From Pelagomonas calceolata (taxonomy: Eukaryota > Sar > Pelagophyceae > Pelagomonadales > Pelagomonadaceae), in NCBI GenBank assembly GCA_918797485.1, contig CAKKNE010000002.1, positions 3,810,501 through 3,874,500 of the forward strand: a DNA stretch of 64,000 nucleotides. The letters run 5' to 3'. The notes beneath the pieces were generated by a model. The model did no database searches. It worked only from the letters and a program-made list of their open reading frames with translations, and was not told where the DNA came from. Positions 1,777-40,545 of the stretch are shown in pieces. Within the stretch, counting starts at the first letter, position 1; every line of letters begins with the position of its first letter. The translations under genes and the position numbers were made by a program.

Positions 1777-3780
1777 GGCTCGGAGAGCTGTGTACAAACT
1801 GGAGCACAGCTCTCGTCCTACGCAGGCAGCGCTCTCAGGAGACAGTGCTAGAGCGGCGCTCGGGCGCTGCGTTTAGGGCCATTGCGCTGATGACTAGGGC
1901 TATTGTGTGTGCTTTCTAGTGTCTTAGTGGCCGCTAGCGTTTAGGGCTATTTGGGTTTTGCTGATTTACCCCCCCCCTCCCTCTACTTCAACTTTACGTT
2001 GAACTTCAATCTGACGCGGCACAAGTATCCTAGGCCTATTCATATAATATTTTGGTTTCCACACTGCCGCCGAATCAGCGCTGCCTCGATTGGGCCGACG
2101 TGACGTTGTGTGTGCTTCTAGACCTGCAAGAATAGGTTGGCGGCAGTTCTTCGCCCATTTCCGTCGCTTGCGTATGGGCGAACATAGTCTTCAGGACAAA
2201 AAAAAGCCCGTCACTGAGCGTCACCTCGAATGGACCATTTTGAGATGAAAGTCGTGTCCACACCCGTCCATACTTTGTATCGCTGGTCGTCGGGTGCGTA
2301 AGACCTGCTCTACAGAGTCACGCTGCCAACGGGTACGACGCGCGGCGGCGTCGGCGGGCCCTCGCTCAGCCCCGGCCCCGGGCCGATGCTCAATTTTAAT
2401 ATTTGATAGTTCCGTGAGTAAGTAGTAGTAATAATAAGCTTGCGTCAGCACCGCCGGCTACTATCATGATAATTATACACAGCTGGGTGAGTGAATGAGT
2501 AATAAATGCGGATGGCTTCCGGGGTCCGTGGACGAGAGAAAGTTTAGGGAACCTCTAGACCCATCAACTCTAACATATTTATGTGTGTGCGCCTATTTTG
2601 GATTGGAAGAGTCCATCTAACACAGTCAGACGATTACTGTGAGGGAGTAGGTGTCCCGTCGACGGCACCGATGTCGGTGACTTCGGAGCCCCGAATTTAT
2701 GCGAAGACGTCCCCAATCCCTGGACCTGCGAATATCCGCGACGCCACTATTACATAAGAGCTTAAAGCAATAACCAGTTCATCAATTAGCCCACTAGTTC
2801 CAGGGCACAGGCACGGTGGACCCCGGCCCATCAACATTTCTCATAAGATCGAAGATCCGATGTGGAGCAGCAATAGCATCCGTAAGTAGAACAACTTCAA
2901 CGTTCAATCCCCGCGGTTTTGCTGAACCCGCGACTTAGCCAGCGCGGCCGGCGTCCAGCAAACAGCAAGGGCAGCCCCAAACCCCAAGCACGGCTGCGTT
3001 TGTGCCATGCGGCAGAGGCAGCAGCTCGTCTGAGGCGCCATGCGCGCGTCAAGCGGCTGCGTTGCGCGCCTGGGCGCCATGCTAGGAATTGGCCTGCTGC
3101 TCCTGCTGTCGGCGAAACGCCGCTCGGCGGCGCAGCTCACTAATGCATTGCTGCTGACGCGGGACGCAAAACATGGCTCTCTTAGGAGCCTCGCAGCGCC
3201 ACACCGCTGCGCGCCGCCCTCCCTGGCTGGAATCCAATGTGAAAGCCTAAATGACTCGCTTTGGCCGTGGGCGCTACGCCGCACGTCGCGGCGTCGTATT
3301 TAAATCATCGCTGCTCTAAAAATCTCCCCCGCAGGTCGGCGGCCGCAGCGTCTGGCCCTGCTGCAGGCCCAAGCGCCGCTTCGTGCGGTGCAAAGGCGGC
3401 GGCCGCCGCGGCGCTCGCCGCGGCCTTGCGAATCACGACCGACAGTGTGCCGTGGCCACGGCATGCACAAACCTAGTCGGCCTCGTGCTTACGTGCGCCG
3501 CCGGCGCAGCCAGCGCGGTCGGCGCGCTCGCCGCGGCCCCTTTTCGGGGTCGCGCACCCGCCGGCGTTGCTTCCGCGCCCGACGCCATCGTCTCCGCGCT
3601 CCCGGCCGACGCAGCGCTGCCCGTGCGCGCCGCCGACGCGACGCCGAGCTCGGACGGTTCGTCTCGAGCCCCCGGCGCCGGCCGGGCAAGCGAGTGCGCG
3701 TTGGCAAGCCGTGGAACGGCGAGCTGCGCGCCGGCGGCGACGCCGCGGGACGACGACGACGCGGAGCCTCGGACGGGCAC
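1777..3780. other. Gene-poor region of about 2 kb
   Basis: No convincing coding gene was found. The stretch from roughly 1900 to 2900 is clearly less GC-rich than the rest of the window and has stop codons in all frames. It contains one copy of the palindromic GCTAG repeat at 1916-1939, 140 bp upstream of the MON1 start. A short open frame at 3040-3303 (+, 87 codons) begins with a leucine-rich segment, but it overlaps an equally long open frame on the other strand and has no recognisable domain, so it is not called as a gene. Confidence 0.5.
1916..1939. repeat. Palindromic GCTAG/CTAG repeat, copy 1
   Basis: CTAGTGTCTTAG followed by TGGCCGCTAGCG is a variant of a ~24-bp imperfect palindrome found nine times in the window. 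This copy lies upstream of MON1. Confidence 0.6.
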
Positions 3781-3866: not shown

Positions 3867-3941
3867 GTGTAAAGAGTGCCGACCGGCGCACGAATCAACA
3901 GTTCTGCGGCGCCACTCGCGCACTGATTGATTTCCACACAG
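3867..3941 (+). mobile_element. Introner-like intron, 3' end clear
   Basis: The sequence ends CACTGATTGATTTCCACACAG. The last part, GATTTCCACACAG, is the inverted copy of the GTGTGGAAATC start of the introner at 28547. The donor side (GTGTAAAGAGTGCC at 3867) is diverged, and its exact position cannot be fixed because the upstream exon is uncertain. Length would be about 73-75 nt, like the other introners here. Confidence 0.6.
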
Positions 3942-25788: not shown

Positions 25789-27354
25789 TCACAAGAGCTC
25801 CCGCACGTACTGGTGGGGCACGTAGCCCTCGCCGCCCCCGTCGACCTCCCTCGCGAAGACCCACTCGTCCCATTTCTTCAGGCACGCGGCCCGCACGAGG
25901 ACCACGTCCCCCGCGGCGACTGAGAGCTCCGATTCGTGCTCCGCGGCGAAGTCGTGGACGACGCGGCAGCGCCGGAACCCGCGGCGCTTCTCCGTCGCGG
26001 AGCTCGTCGGCAAGGTGCGGACCGGTGCCGGTGGCGTCGCGACCGGTTTTGGTTCCGGCGGGGCTGAAGGAGGCGTCGCGACGGGCTCCGGAGGAGGTGC
26101 CGGCGCCGCGACCGGCGCCGGATCCGGGGGGACCTCCCGAGCGGCCCGCCGCTGCATGCGACCGGTAGGCTTATGGGTCCCGGAGCTCGTCGCCGGTTGT
26201 TTTTCGTGGTGTTGGCGTTTCGCAGGAGCCACCGGAGTCGCGGGCGGCGCGTGCGCGACGGCGACCTCGCGCCGCAAGGTCGGCGGGGCCGGCGCGGGCT
26301 GCTGCTGCGTCTCTCGGGCAGCGATGGCCTCGCGGATCTTCGACAGCTTCGCGTCGAAGGAGGCGTCCTTCGAGCGGGGCGGCGGCGGCGGAGGCTTCGG
26401 CTTCTTCCAAGCCGCGTGGTGGTGCTTCTTCGCCGCCGCCGCGACGGCGACGGGCGCCGCGGCCATGACCGCGACCTCGCGCCGGACGGGCGACTCAAAC
26501 GAGACGCGCCGCCTCGCGGGTTCCTCGTCCGACGGCGCGGCCGCCTGGCGCGTCGCCTCCGCGACCGCCGCGTCCGCGAGGGCGCGCCGGCGCAGGGCCG
26601 CGGGCGACGGGCGGGGCGGCGACGCGGGCCCGCCGGCGGCCGCGTTCACGACGCGCAGGAGCCGCTCGCAGGCGACGGTCGCCCGCATCGCCTCGTCGGC
26701 GCTCGAGGCGCAGCCCCGGCCGAAGACGAGGGGCGCGACCATCAGGGCGAGGCCCCGCCACGACGCGCCGTTCAGGCGCTGGCGCCGCACGAGCCGCCCG
26801 AGGTGCAGGGCGAGGCGCTCGAGCACCTGGTGGTGGAGGCTCGCGAGCCCCGCCAGCAGGGCGTCGAGCGCCTGGGCGCCGGCGGCCGCGTCCGTGTCGG
26901 TCGCGGCGGAAATGCATGCGGCCCGCTTGTCGACCGGTATGAGTGGCGCACGCGATCGCAGTAGCGCCGCGACCGCGTCGAGGACGGCGTGCGGGTCGCC
27001 GGCGTCGATGGCCGACGCGATCGACTTCGTCCGCTGGCCGCCGTCGACGCGCGCGCCGGCGCCCAGGGCGAAGACCTTGACCACTGCCTTGCGCGCGACG
27101 TCGCCCTTCTCGAGCCAGAGGCCGCGGCGGCACATGGCGCGCTCGTCGCGCTCGAACGCGTCGAGCGCGCTGCGCAGCGCGCCCACGTCGCCGCGCGTCC
27201 AGGGCGGCGCCGATGGGGCCGACGGCGTGTCGTCCTCGTCCGCGCGGGCGGCGCCGCAGGCCGGGCAAAAACGATTTTTCGACTTGAGCCTCGCGCCGCA
27301 GGTGGCGCACTGATGGCTTCCTTTGGTCGCGCTTCCCCAGCGGAAGAGCGGCAT
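25789..27354 (-). CDS. Zinc-ribbon / degenerate RhoGAP-like / SH3 protein
   Basis: 521 aa. The N-terminus has a zinc ribbon (CATCGARLKSKNRFCPACG, residues ~17-35). Residues ~55-225 look like a RhoGAP domain: RRGLWLEKGD at the arginine-finger loop, HAVLDAVAALLRSRAPLIPVD, and LNGASWRGLALMVAPLVFG at the end. The finger arginine of the usual GIFRxSG loop is replaced (GLWLEKG), so catalysis is doubtful. A long proline/alanine-rich linker with PPPPPPRSK patches follows. The last ~65 residues form an SH3 domain (CRVVHDFAAEHESELSVAAGD ... GYVPHQYVREL). Likely an adaptor in actin or Rho signalling. The RhoGAP call is from pattern only. Confidence 0.6.
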   Translation of the reverse strand: MPLFRWGSATKGSHQCATCGARLKSKNRFCPACGAARADEDDTPSAPSAPPWTRGDVGALRSALDAFERDERAMCRRGLWLEKGDVARKAVVKVFALGAGARVDGGQRTKSIASAIDAGDPHAVLDAVAALLRSRAPLIPVDKRAACISAATDTDAAAGAQALDALLAGLASLHHQVLERLALHLGRLVRRQRLNGASWRGLALMVAPLVFGRGCASSADEAMRATVACERLLRVVNAAAGGPASPPRPSPAALRRRALADAAVAEATRQAAAPSDEEPARRRVSFESPVRREVAVMAAAPVAVAAAAKKHHHAAWKKPKPPPPPPRSKDASFDAKLSKIREAIAARETQQQPAPAPPTLRREVAVAHAPPATPVAPAKRQHHEKQPATSSGTHKPTGRMQRRAAREVPPDPAPVAAPAPPPEPVATPPSAPPEPKPVATPPAPVRTLPTSSATEKRRGFRRCRVVHDFAAEHESELSVAAGDVVLVRAACLKKWDEWVFAREVDGGGEGYVPHQYVRELL

Positions 27355-27602: not shown

Positions 27603-28907
27603 ATGCGTGGCGAGGCCTCGGACTTCGCGGCGATGCGCGACGCCTTCCGCAGCGCGGGCCTCTGCAGCGAGGCCACGCCGGCGGCGCTCGTGGAGAGCTG
27701 GTGCGCGCGTCGGGACGACGCGAGCGACGGCGAGGACTCGCTCTACGTGCCGTCGCCGCAGCGCGTCAAAATCCGGCGGCGCCTCGCGGAGGCGTGCGTC
27801 GCGAGCCCGCGCTTCGTGCGGCGCGCGGCCGAGGCCGCCGCGGTCGAGCGCCTCAACCGGCGGCGCGCGGTCCGGGCGCTCGCGGCGGTCGTCGCGCGCG
27901 GGCGCGCGGCGTGGCTGCTCGCGCGGCGGGCCGACGCGTTCCGGGCGGCGCGCGGCTTGGACGCGTGGCGACAAGCCGCGGAGGCGGCCCGGCGCCGCGC
28001 CGCCGCGGACGACCTGCTGGACGCCTACGGTGACGCGCGCCGCACGCAACGGGGCTTGGGGCGGTGGCGGCGCGGCGCGGCGCGACTTCGAAGGCGGCGG
28101 CGCCTGCGGACGCACGGCCGGCGCGCGTTCCACCGGTGGGCCAAGCTGATCCGGTACGCGCGGCGGCTGCGCGCGGCCCGCGTCTTCGGGGTCCTGAAGC
28201 GCGCGGCCCAGCGGCGCCGGCGCCGGGAACTGGTGGTCGCGGACGCGTACCGGCGGGCTCGCTTGCGCCTCGTCCTGGGGGCGTGGGTCCCGGTCGCGGC
28301 GACGTGGAAGGCGCGGCGCCTCGCCTACGTATTGTAGCCGGCGTCCTTCATCTTTTTGGAAGCCTTCGTCGATGGCCGCCGCCGAGAGACACCGCAACAG
28401 CACCGCCGTCGACGCGAGAGACATGACGCGCCCGCAGGAGCGCGAGGCGCGACACACGCGGCGCCTCGTCGCGGCCGTCTTCGCGCGCTGGGTGCGCGTG
28501 CGGCGGTTCCGGCGCGCGGCGCGGGACTTTCTGCGGGCGCGCGGCTGTGTGGAAATCAACCAGTGCGTCGGGTGCACATTTCTCGGCGATGATGCGGCCG
28601 TGCCGGCTCCGTCGGGCGGCGAGGAACCGGCACCCTCACGCTATCGAGCAGGCGCCGCGTCGATGGCGTCGAGGTCGATGCGGCGATTCAGCATGGACGC
28701 CGTAACATTTCGATTTCCACGCAGGCGCGCGGCCTCGAGCGGCGGCGGACGCGCCAGCTCGCGCGACGCTGCCTCCGAGGCTGGCGGGCGCGCGGGCGCC
28801 AGGCGCTTGTACTTGCAACGCCGCAGCAGAAACACAACAGAGAGCGGTCGTCGCGCAGTTTATTTAGCGAGGACGCGATCCGGCGCATCCACGCGCCCTA
28901 CACCTGA
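27603..28907 (+). CDS. Sfi1-like repeat protein (three exons), possible centrin-binding
   Basis: Exon 1 (27603-28328) has several tryptophan-centred helical repeats (AFRAARGLDAWRQAA, RTQRGLGRWRRGAARL, RRAFHRWAKLIRYARRL). Exon 2 (to 28548) has VFARWVRVRRFRRAAR. Exon 3 (28725-28907) has LARRCLRGWRARGRQAL. This AFxxW pattern resembles Sfi1 repeats that bind centrin at centrosomes and basal bodies. The first intron starts at 28329 (GTATTG); acceptors at 28362 (34 nt) or 28386 (58 nt) both keep frame. The second intron is a 176-nt introner (28549-28724) whose removal keeps the repeat frame and leads to a TGA at 28905. Proteins are arginine-rich throughout. The ATG at 27603 has another in-frame ATG nine codons on. 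Confidence 0.62.
28546..28723 (+). mobile_element. Introner element with inverted ends and perfect 10-bp target duplication
   Basis: The element starts TGTGTGGAAATCAACCAGTG and ends CGATTTCCACGCA. The terminal 12 bases, TGTGTGGAAATC and GATTTCCACGCA, are inverted copies with one mismatch. GGCGCGCGGC is repeated exactly on both sides (28536-28545 and 28724-28733). The donor is the second GT of the left end, and the acceptor AG joins the element's last A to the first G of the target duplication. Splicing removes 28549-28724. The net insertion is 12 nt, so four residues (CARG) are added in frame. An inner inverted repeat, GTGCCGG ... CCGGCAC, lies at 28599-28633. Confidence 0.88.
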
Positions 28908-28918
28908 TTTATTAAATA

Positions 28919-30334
28919 TTAAGTATTACATATCTTCGTGTGCCTCGCGTGCGCTTCGTCTTTGGAACCGGGCGCGCCGTAGGCGTACATGAGCTGCGCG
29001 AGGAACTCGCGGTATAAATGATCCATGCGGTCGCGGTGCGTGTTGCCGTCCGCATCTTGAGTCTCCTCCCACTCGACGCGCGCCGCGCTCTTGTGGTGCG
29101 GGAAGTGCGTCAAGAAACTTCTCCCCAAAACCTGGAAGCGCCAGCCCGCATACCTCAAGTGGACGATCTGCTCGATCTTGTTTTTGCCGTAGCCCGTGAA
29201 CCGCTCCTCGTACATGGGTAAGAGCGGCGACTTCCTCAGCACGACGTAGGGCTCGTATCTATTGGATCCAAAACACGACACGGGCTTCAGACTCTTCCCC
29301 CCGTCAAAGCCGTGCAACCAACTCCTATAATCCGTCGTGCCGTGGCCGTCGTGGTTGTACCGATCAAAAATGTGGCAGTCCTTGGCCATGATGCACTTCT
29401 TGAGCGTCTCGAAGGAGTCGGGGATCTGGTCCGCTTCCCGGTGACACAATTTGAGGTCGACGCGGTATTTATCTCGCTGGGCCTTGGCCGTGGAAGAAGC
29501 GCAGTCCGTCTTGACCTCGCGCGCGAAGGCCGCGATCACGATGGCCTGCCGCGGGTCCGCGAAGGTGTGGTTGTGCCGCGCCATGCTCGACAGTCGCTTT
29601 AACCTCGGTAGTAAATTAGCATCTGGCCAGAGATCGATATCAGCGTGTAAGAAATGCGACGTCCTTACTCTCGAAATGGCCATATTCCTCAATTTATTAA
29701 CCGGGTAGGACGAGTGGTCGCTGTAGATGTGCAGCTTGACGGTCGTGATGATGTACTCCACCTGGTTCGGGTAGCACTTGTCCCGCTCCGTCTGGATCTT
29801 CTCCGTGATCGGCGCGTAGACGGAAATGACGATGGGCCCGTGCCACCGCTGGCAAATGTGGTCGAGCATCCACAGCCGCTCCGCCGACGCTTGCGTCACG
29901 AGCGTAAAATCGACCCGACACAAGTCCCTGCTCTCGGGAAACGGCTCCGGCTGCGCTAATTGTGTCGCAATACTCACGAATGAGTCATTTGTAACTACTG
30001 AACCGGTGAACGCCGAGTGGATCGACGCCCGCGCGGGCGCGCGCTCCTGCGTGCGCCAGCAGCCCCGCGGCCCGCGGTATAAGGACCGGATGGCGTCGTC
30101 CGTTTTTGTGGAGTAGGACGGGGCCGGCGTCGGCTGATGCAACAAAGCTTCCTCGCGGAAGAAGTGCGTCTTGGGGTCGTCGTCGACCCACTCCTCCACC
30201 GTGTGCTGCTGCTCCGTCGTGGGCCGGAAATGTTTTAGGACAACATAGGCGTAGAGCGTCAGGGCGCCGAGCACCGGTAGCAAAACGAAGCACTTGGCGC
30301 GCGGCTTGCGGCGGCGCCGTGGTGGTGGAGGCAT
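28919..30334 (-). CDS. Type II membrane glycosyltransferase, GT49/LARGE-C-terminal-like
   Basis: 471 aa. A basic N-terminus (PPPPRRRRKPRAKCF) and one membrane anchor (VLLPVLGALTLYAYVVL, ~17-33) indicate a Golgi type II protein. The catalytic region has NKLRNMAISRVRTSHFLHAD with the metal-binding DID of HADIDLWPDAN. Further on come EPYVVLRKSPLLPMYEERF, GYGKNKIEQIVHLRYAG and FLTHFPHHKSAARVEW. This order matches the Glyco_transf_49 family that includes B4GAT1 and the second domain of LARGE. Such enzymes transfer glucuronic acid or N-acetylglucosamine to glycans; the actual donor here is unknown. The stop is 12 bp from that of the convergent Sfi1-like gene. Confidence 0.82.
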   Translation of the reverse strand: MPPPPRRRRKPRAKCFVLLPVLGALTLYAYVVLKHFRPTTEQQHTVEEWVDDDPKTHFFREEALLHQPTPAPSYSTKTDDAIRSLYRGPRGCWRTQERAPARASIHSAFTGSVVTNDSFVSIATQLAQPEPFPESRDLCRVDFTLVTQASAERLWMLDHICQRWHGPIVISVYAPITEKIQTERDKCYPNQVEYIITTVKLHIYSDHSSYPVNKLRNMAISRVRTSHFLHADIDLWPDANLLPRLKRLSSMARHNHTFADPRQAIVIAAFAREVKTDCASSTAKAQRDKYRVDLKLCHREADQIPDSFETLKKCIMAKDCHIFDRYNHDGHGTTDYRSWLHGFDGGKSLKPVSCFGSNRYEPYVVLRKSPLLPMYEERFTGYGKNKIEQIVHLRYAGWRFQVLGRSFLTHFPHHKSAARVEWEETQDADGNTHRDRMDHLYREFLAQLMYAYGAPGSKDEAHARHTKICNT

Positions 30335-39527: not shown

Positions 39528-40545
39528 ATGCCGGCCGGAAAGACATTACTGGTGCTGCTTGCACCATGGATCTCACAAGTGGCAGCATTTGCCCACGTCC
39601 ACTCACAGCCGCGGACCCGCAGCGTAGCCAAGAGCGCCGCCGGGGATTGTGACTCGCCGACTTCGCGACGCGACCTCCTCAAGGCGGCCTCGCTCACGGC
39701 TCTGGCCTTCCCGAACGCGGCGCTCGCCCTCGCCCAGATAACGGCTCCCTCACAAGAGCAGCTCAAGCTCTACGACCTGCCGCGCAACGCGCTCCAGGAC
39801 GCAGCCTTCGCGCAAGGCATGGCGTCGGGCATGGGCTCGTATGAGAGAGCTGCCTTCCCGACGAAGCAGCGCCTCTTCGAGAGAATGTTTGCGAAACTCC
39901 AGGACACCGCCGAGCCCACGATCGTAGAGATTGGGATAGGGAGCTTCCCGAACGCTCCGCTCAGGCCTGTGTGACAATCGACCCAGTTAGGGAGAGAACG
40001 TCGCGTCGATAGCGTAGAGAGCGGACGTCCCAATTTGAATCCCGCACAGGTATTACACCCCCCGACTCAAGGGCCGGGGCGGCCTCGACATCATCGGCGT
40101 GGACCCCAACGACCGCATGGAGAATTATGCAAGGGACAACGCGGCCAAGGCCGGCCTCGGTGCGACCAGCTCGCTGCGCGTCGTCCACGGCGTCTCCGAG
40201 GCCCTGCCGCTGGCGTCAAAGTCGTGCGACGCCGTCGTCTGCTCGCTGACGCTCTGCAGCGTCGTCGACCCGGCGCGGTCGGTCGCGGAGATCAAGCGCG
40301 TGTTGAGACCCGGCGGCCAGTTCGTCTTCTGGGAGCACGTCCTCTCGGAGACGGATCCTAGTTTCGCCGAGGAGCAGGTCCGGGCGACGCCCATGCAGAT
40401 CAAGCGCGCCGACGGCTGCCACCTCGATCGCCGGACGGGAGACATTATCCGCAAGGCCGGGTTCAGGTCCTGCGACCTCGAGTATCTGGAGTTGAAGGGC
40501 TTCGGGTTCCTGAATCCGACGGTTTGCGGTATTGCTACGGCATAA
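39528..40545 (+). CDS. SAM-dependent methyltransferase predicted to reach the thylakoid lumen (two exons)
   Basis: Exons 39528-39970 and 40050-40545. The leader has a signal peptide ending VAAFAHV (like the ASAFAP cleavage motif of heterokont plastid proteins). A transit-like stretch and then a twin-arginine segment, SRRDLLKAASLTALAFPNA, with ALA cleavage follow. Together they predict transport into the thylakoid lumen. The methyltransferase core is class I: motif I VEIGIGSFPNA is split from IIGVDPNDRMENYA by an introner, then ALPLASKSCDAVVCSLTLCSV and VLRPGGQFVFWEHV. It resembles the plant family of small methyltransferases related to UbiE. Exon 1 ends in GT of a valine codon completed by G after the intron. 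Substrate unknown. Confidence 0.75.
39971..40049 (+). mobile_element. Introner-like intron in the methyltransferase gene (79 nt)
   Basis: Begins GTGACAATCGACCCAGTTAG and ends AATTTGAATCCCGCACAG, both clearly related to the introner ends GTGGAAATCAACCAGTG and GATTTCCACACAG. Removal joins motif I to the rest of the methyltransferase in the correct frame; reading through gives TGA at once. No flanking duplication remains. Confidence 0.75.

Follow-up and report, generated by a model that had tools for sequence, protein, structure and literature searches.

The DNA analysed here (the window, a stretch of 64,000 nucleotides from Pelagomonas calceolata) carries on its plus strand a gene with three predicted exons. 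Its neighbours on the minus strand encode a protein with SH3, RhoGAP and zinc-ribbon-like stretches (25789-27354) and a glycosyltransferase of the family Glyco_transf_49 (28919-30334). The initial annotation of this DNA had called the host gene Sfi1-like, a label without support from Pfam, where 0 families matched at E <= 10. Judged by its sequence, the segment at 28545-28724 within this gene is one copy of a large family of introners, i.e., short non-autonomous DNA transposons acting as introns. The features are as follows (a slash marks a splice position):

27603-28328, plus strand: predicted host exon 1
28329-28437, plus strand: the other predicted host intron, 109 nt, outside this introner family; absent from protein P0001 and partly kept in P0015
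28438-28548, plus strand: predicted host exon 2, ending in the element's first four bases CTGT
28537-28544, plus strand: left copy of the target-site duplication, 8 bp, GCGCGCGG (placed by the family-wide 8-bp boundary)
28545-28724, plus strand: introner element of family A, 180 bp (placed by genome matches and family boundaries)
28545-28557, plus strand: left 13-bp inverted end CTGTGTGGAAATC, with the donor CTGT/GTGG inside
28549-28724, plus strand: predicted intron, 176 nt (from frame, homology and family rule)
28576-28577, plus strand: scar left by an internal deletion of 21 nt (consensus 33-53), at a distance of 32 bp from the left end
28712-28724, plus strand: right inverted end GATTTCCACGCAG, with the acceptor CAG/ inside and one mismatch to the left end
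28725-28732, plus strand: right copy of the target-site duplication, GCGCGCGG (placed by the family-wide boundary)
28725-28907, plus strand: predicted host exon 3, through the stop codon

A search of the genome (32,445,274 bases in 8 contigs) with the 178-bp element as first delimited, a check that the initial annotation had itself proposed, scored 40 places including the query among 541 first-look candidates, all at E <= 7.5e-45, with the other 39 at 79-88% identity. A pattern scan for exact ends returned 71 copies of 96-125 bp, 53 of 126-156 bp and 160 of 190-220 bp, as well as 220 strand matches of 156-186 bp; owing to the near symmetry of the 156-186 bp pattern, most elements listed there show on both strands, and the 220 matches represent about 110 elements. 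The reversed pattern gave 0 matches in each of the four length classes. All these counts are lower bounds because lengths of 187-189 bp and copies with mutated ends are left out. The window and 120 fetched regions yielded 132 copies, and 20 further regions raised the number to 153; most of the fetched copies were picked by exact ends and length class, so that deleted forms and intact ends are both over-represented. They fall into subfamilies A (121 copies) and B (32 copies), each with a 203-bp full form, with ends in common and different interiors.

Many similar copies at unrelated gene positions, 117 of the 153 with coding called on both sides and on one strand, are what is expected of introners. 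The elements are short and non-coding, with 13-bp inverted ends, a fixed 8-bp duplication and a 203-bp full form, and in this they have the make-up of MITEs, or non-autonomous TIR transposons. Copies and boundaries of the family support the earlier proposal of a transposon-like introner with inverted ends. Three more traces occur in the window. The minus strand has a degenerate family-B-like introner of 76 bp (821-896), whose duplication has 2 mismatches, and a solitary left introner end in good condition (3919-3941), for which no right-end partner was found within the window. The third is a degenerate family-B-like element with recognisable ends (39967-40050), a matching duplication being absent from the letters read.

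Splicing is predicted from the reading frame. A codon model that trained itself on 28 long frames called coding on both sides and on one strand for the 117 copies mentioned above; 17 others were weak, the two sides of 14 fell on different strands and the flank of 5 was too short. Once the element is removed by the rule CTGT/GT...AG/, the frames on either side join in 111 of the 117, compared to 40 of the 117, which is the chance level, with the element left in. Intron phases 0/1/2 number 56/17/38, and six copies break the rule (L038, L043, L047, L079, L100 and L102). Relative to the gene, 73 of the 117 elements lie one way and 44 the other, and frames are kept in both orientations; as the ends are inverted repeats, an element would be spliceable in either. 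An antisense B copy in an aldehyde dehydrogenase leaves four extra residues opposite a four-residue gap in each of the four alignments inspected out of 240 matching chains, a case that is supportive rather than decisive because a second four-residue gap lies about 20 residues upstream.

The window copy stands outside the 117, since its short exon and neighbouring intron left the codon model undecided, and its splice rests on translation and on alignment with relatives. Removal of the predicted intron takes out 176 nt and leaves 12 nt (CTGT plus 8 bp), just as the initial annotation had it. Likewise, the predicted in-frame gain of four residues agrees with both the family frame test and the host protein, which in spliced form matches its relatives but for exactly four extra residues. 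We regard the element as probably removed from the message as a brand-new intron. The accompanying suggestion that this copy was an intron from the start is plausible.

Alleles with and without the insertion occur among public proteins, nearly all of the matched ones having the source "ena". A search with the spliced host protein (339 aa) matched 12 proteins, and the empty site for which a search in relatives had been suggested is seen in the alignments, reading DFLR----ARGLE, in P0001 (335 aa, 94%), P0002 (94%) and P0007 (70%). The unspliced frame matched 41 proteins at E <= 10, among which P0010, P0011 and P0013 read through the element and represent filled alleles. Two more of the proteins read, P0015 and P0016, have the empty site; both retain part of the preceding intron and therefore look genomic. 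A second introner elsewhere in the same gene is present in P0005 and P0006 (left side) and in P0041 (right side).

The same was found at a second locus, L119, which was chosen for its antisense orientation and full length, not for polymorphism. Here, a search with 23 matches gave empty sites in P0049-P0052, filled sites from the left in P0057 and P0059-P0065 (the latter seven with slightly different letters just before the element), and filled sites from the right in P0055, P0056, P0058 and P0069. Relatives of the L119 gene (P0053, P0054 and P0067) show, a few codons upstream, signs of a further introner, which has a variant end (..SAEINQ / ISAQ..) and would occur in other populations. Both loci examined (2 of 2) are thus polymorphic, and the co-occurrence of empty and filled alleles in public protein sets indicates that the insertions are recent, as had been proposed for the window copy. 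No protein both filled and spliced appeared among the matches of the three protein searches (12, 41 and 23 matches). The read-through frames of the filled proteins would also be expected if the element were a disruptive, unspliced mobile element and the filled allele a damaged gene; we consider this very unlikely, as the frames in 111 of the 117 copies join only if the element is spliced by the rule and the exon downstream of the window copy retains its sequence in the spliced frame, as the alignment with relatives shows.

The boundaries of the element follow from the family. Across the 132 copies, agreement between the two flanks is 86-94% at each of exactly 8 positions, and only 23-29% ahead of this stretch and 14-35% beyond it; 79 of the duplications are perfect and 26 have a single mismatch. 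Their commonest letters form the palindrome GTCGCGAC; of the 132, 76 have T as the second letter and 62 have A as the seventh. The inverted ends had been correctly recognised at 28546-28557 and 28712-28723. The 10-bp direct repeat GGCGCGCGGC described with them is truly present (28536-28545 and 28724-28733, plus strand), and with it the element would be 178 bp long and its acceptor AG made of the element's last A and a co-opted target G, an arrangement said to occur in Aureococcus and Micromonas. We hold this arrangement to be highly improbable here, because matching ends at exactly 8 bp in the 132 copies. The window duplication is accordingly the 8-bp GCGCGCGG, and the extra matching base on either side of it agrees only by chance with the terminal C and G, which are the element's own. 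The element therefore spans 28545-28724 (180 bp), and the acceptor (CACGCAG/ in the window copy, CACACAG/ in the consensus) lies wholly within it, its final G being the element's last base. With both splice sites inside the inverted ends, no target bases are co-opted, which sets the family apart from introners that take a splice site from the duplicated target.

We are highly confident that the window holds an introner, a MITE-like non-autonomous DNA transposon, in an exon of this picoalga. It would have inserted into the protein-coding exon with duplication of 8 bp of the target, driven by a transposase acting in trans; its inverted ends would supply the donor CTGT/GTGG and the acceptor, splicing would remove all but 4 nt of the element, and together with the duplicated 8 bp the message would gain 12 nt, or four codons, in frame. 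For fungal introner-like elements, spread through RNA has been proposed, with introns being reverse-spliced. Such a route would fit copies that lie in coding sequence and behave as introns, yet is barely credible here: the ends are inverted, the 8-bp duplication shows a target preference and insertions occur in both orientations, all of which favours DNA transposition.

Introner ends begin with CTGTG, whereas the usual tip of hAT ends is CARNG. Hermes and other hAT transposons make 8-bp duplications and prefer nTnnnnAn targets (PMC10368747), and both features are found in the introners, GTCGCGAC fitting the preference. Hermes requires about 220 bp of each end in cells, which is more than a whole introner element (PMC10368747). 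Profile searches for MULE and Merlin-type transposases gave 0 matches; the 0 matches of the KDZ and P-type profiles show nothing, as these were silent in control genomes too. An element of 3651 bp lies at L130:4550-8200 (G000 C4:4499549-4503199). Its 20-bp ends (CAGGGCAGCAGAAGGGCAAG) are perfect, as is its 8-bp duplication (TTGCTCGC), and its 714-aa frame includes a hAT dimerisation domain. From its sequence it is a canonical, intact-looking hAT that appears to be young; no other hAT was found, and its ends differ from those of the introners. No introner end closer than 4 mismatches of 13 occurs within its 9.9-kb surroundings, and its different ends speak against it as the autonomous partner. 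In the five profile types searched and the surroundings of the hAT locus, a transposase with introner ends was not found. The transposase presumed to be supplied in trans would perhaps be hAT-like, going by duplication length and target preference, although the tip of the ends does not fit.

Many copies have internal deletions, and these tend to begin at a fixed distance from the element end. Deletions of at least 4 nt were scored against the 203-bp consensus, and seven loci with insertions of at least 8 nt were dropped. In family A, 69 of 141 deletions leave 29-34 nt on the left (mean 5.8 and maximum 15 in 5000 trials of random placement) and 28 of 141 leave 29-35 nt on the right (random mean 6.7, maximum 18). 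In family B, 17 of 42 deletions fall at that left distance (random mean 1.8, maximum 8), and the 4 of 42 at that distance from the right end are not significant (random mean 2.1). The longest ungapped run from the element end, an alignment-free measure compared with 300 simulations, agrees: among the 121 A copies, 72 have prefixes of 29-35 nt (simulated mean 8.5, maximum 18) and 23 have suffixes of that length (mean 9.4, maximum 19); among the 32 B copies, the prefixes number 20 (mean 2.5, maximum 9) and the suffixes 4 (mean 2.3, not significant). Near-complete runs aside, the largest class of A suffixes is that of 18-20 nt (36 of 121), which ends where a short A/T run has gaps of 1-2 nt. The effect at about 31 bp is thus strong at the left end of both families and weaker at the right end of A. 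Recurrent 58-nt deletions in family B (in copies such as L031, L140, L142, L149 and L150) are of a different kind, having the length of a B-interior repeat unit.

Most of these deletions appear to have arisen separately. The opposite ends of the left-anchored deletions are scattered (51 distinct among 87), pairs of copies with the same left-deletion length have a mean identity of 0.919 (66 pairs) compared to 0.928 for different lengths (1764 pairs), and the nearest relative shares the left deletion in 2 of 61 cases; for most copies tested we therefore reject joint inheritance. Full independence is contradicted by several near-identical family-B copies of about 112 nt with one common interior deletion (G000 C1:876241, C2:6027860, C4:225198, C6:3350360 and others), which by their sequence are a trimmed form that has in turn multiplied. 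The deletions do not serve as an age clock, as full copies have a mean identity of 0.959 (n = 17) and deleted ones of 0.952 (n = 99; p = 0.24); at single-element loci (13 full, 90 deleted), duplication mismatches are commoner in deleted copies, a difference that is no more than suggestive (p = 0.058). Left-anchored deletions are present in both gene orientations (43 of 56 vs 20 of 36 in A, p = 0.04; 10 of 17 vs 4 of 8 in B), for which reason a link to transcription was set aside and a cause at the DNA level is preferred, although a small orientation difference remains. Microhomology of at least 2 nt is in slight excess at the left-anchored junctions (20 of 87 vs 12.8 expected, p = 0.047).

The window copy lacks consensus 33-53, a stretch that its nearest compared relative, L010 (94.9%), keeps. 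At the same insertion, P0010 lacks six further residues beside the scar and P0013 differs at the same place; the left deletion end of P0010 would lie at about 25-26 nt rather than 31. Both proteins read DAV-FRFP at the right end, which goes with a 2-nt deletion unique to the window copy among the A copies. These differences, read from protein letters, suggest trimming in place.

The pattern of deletions as such has good support. As a tentative explanation of it we propose that copies are repeatedly cut and rejoined in place, with one deletion end set about 31 bp inside the element end and the other free. A bound transposase, or else a nucleosome, would plausibly act as the ruler by its edge, and the deletions would most likely come from resident copies being broken and repaired, with the bound protein setting the limit on one side. 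Alternatively, and somewhat more doubtfully, local sequence or chromatin rather than the transposase may set the distance, through a palindrome at the boundary or a nucleosome edge on the interior of about 141 bp. Family A has a 16-bp palindrome GTCGGGTGCACCCGAC at consensus 23-38, around the left boundary, and 203 minus twice 31 approximates a nucleosome core, albeit by arithmetic only. Family B, however, has no palindrome there and yet its deletions show the same distance, so that the palindrome was rejected as a general cause of a hot spot. As single strands, both consensus forms fold stably (z -5.0 and -8.0), but neither fold has an obvious base at 31 bp.

Introners as such are an established kind of element. 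Huff et al. reportedly described those of Aureococcus anophagefferens and Micromonas pusilla in 2016 as short non-autonomous DNA transposons with inverted ends and duplications. Each is said to bring one splice site and to co-opt the other from the duplicated target, whereas both sites lie in the element in the window family. This arrangement is also already published: an introner with both splice sites described in 2022 adds 12 bp, of which the introner contributes 4 and the duplication 8, and thereby four extra residues relative to an ortholog without it (PMC9860276). The arithmetic of 4 + 8 nt is the same as in the window family, a likeness of description rather than of compared sequences; the published example (scaffold position 3289-3365) is shorter than the window element, and the accessible text makes no mention of fixed-distance deletions for it (PMC9860276). 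For P. calceolata, where the published RCC100 assembly comprises 32.4 Mb in six nuclear contigs and one contig each for plastid and mitochondrion, introners were suspected because intron lengths peak near 210 bp, which is also how long Aureococcus introners are; the accessible part of that paper describes no ends, duplication, orientation or pattern of deletions (Guerin et al. 2022, PMC9481584). In the open-access introner literature, as far as its text was accessible, we found no mention of fixed-distance deletions, and internal deletions that start about 31 bp from the element end and are mostly independent are possibly new.

The rule that turns this element into an intron is readable from DNA alone, and intron gain is caught here while segregating, with one gene present with and without the intron in natural populations. 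The fixed-distance deletions, if confirmed, would be a footprint of the mobilising enzyme and a mechanism for the length of new introns, an idea that is testable in existing plankton metagenomes. If it holds, new introns would be born at about 200 nt and then shortened copy by copy by the very machinery that moves them, while the spared ends would leave each trimmed copy spliceable in either orientation.
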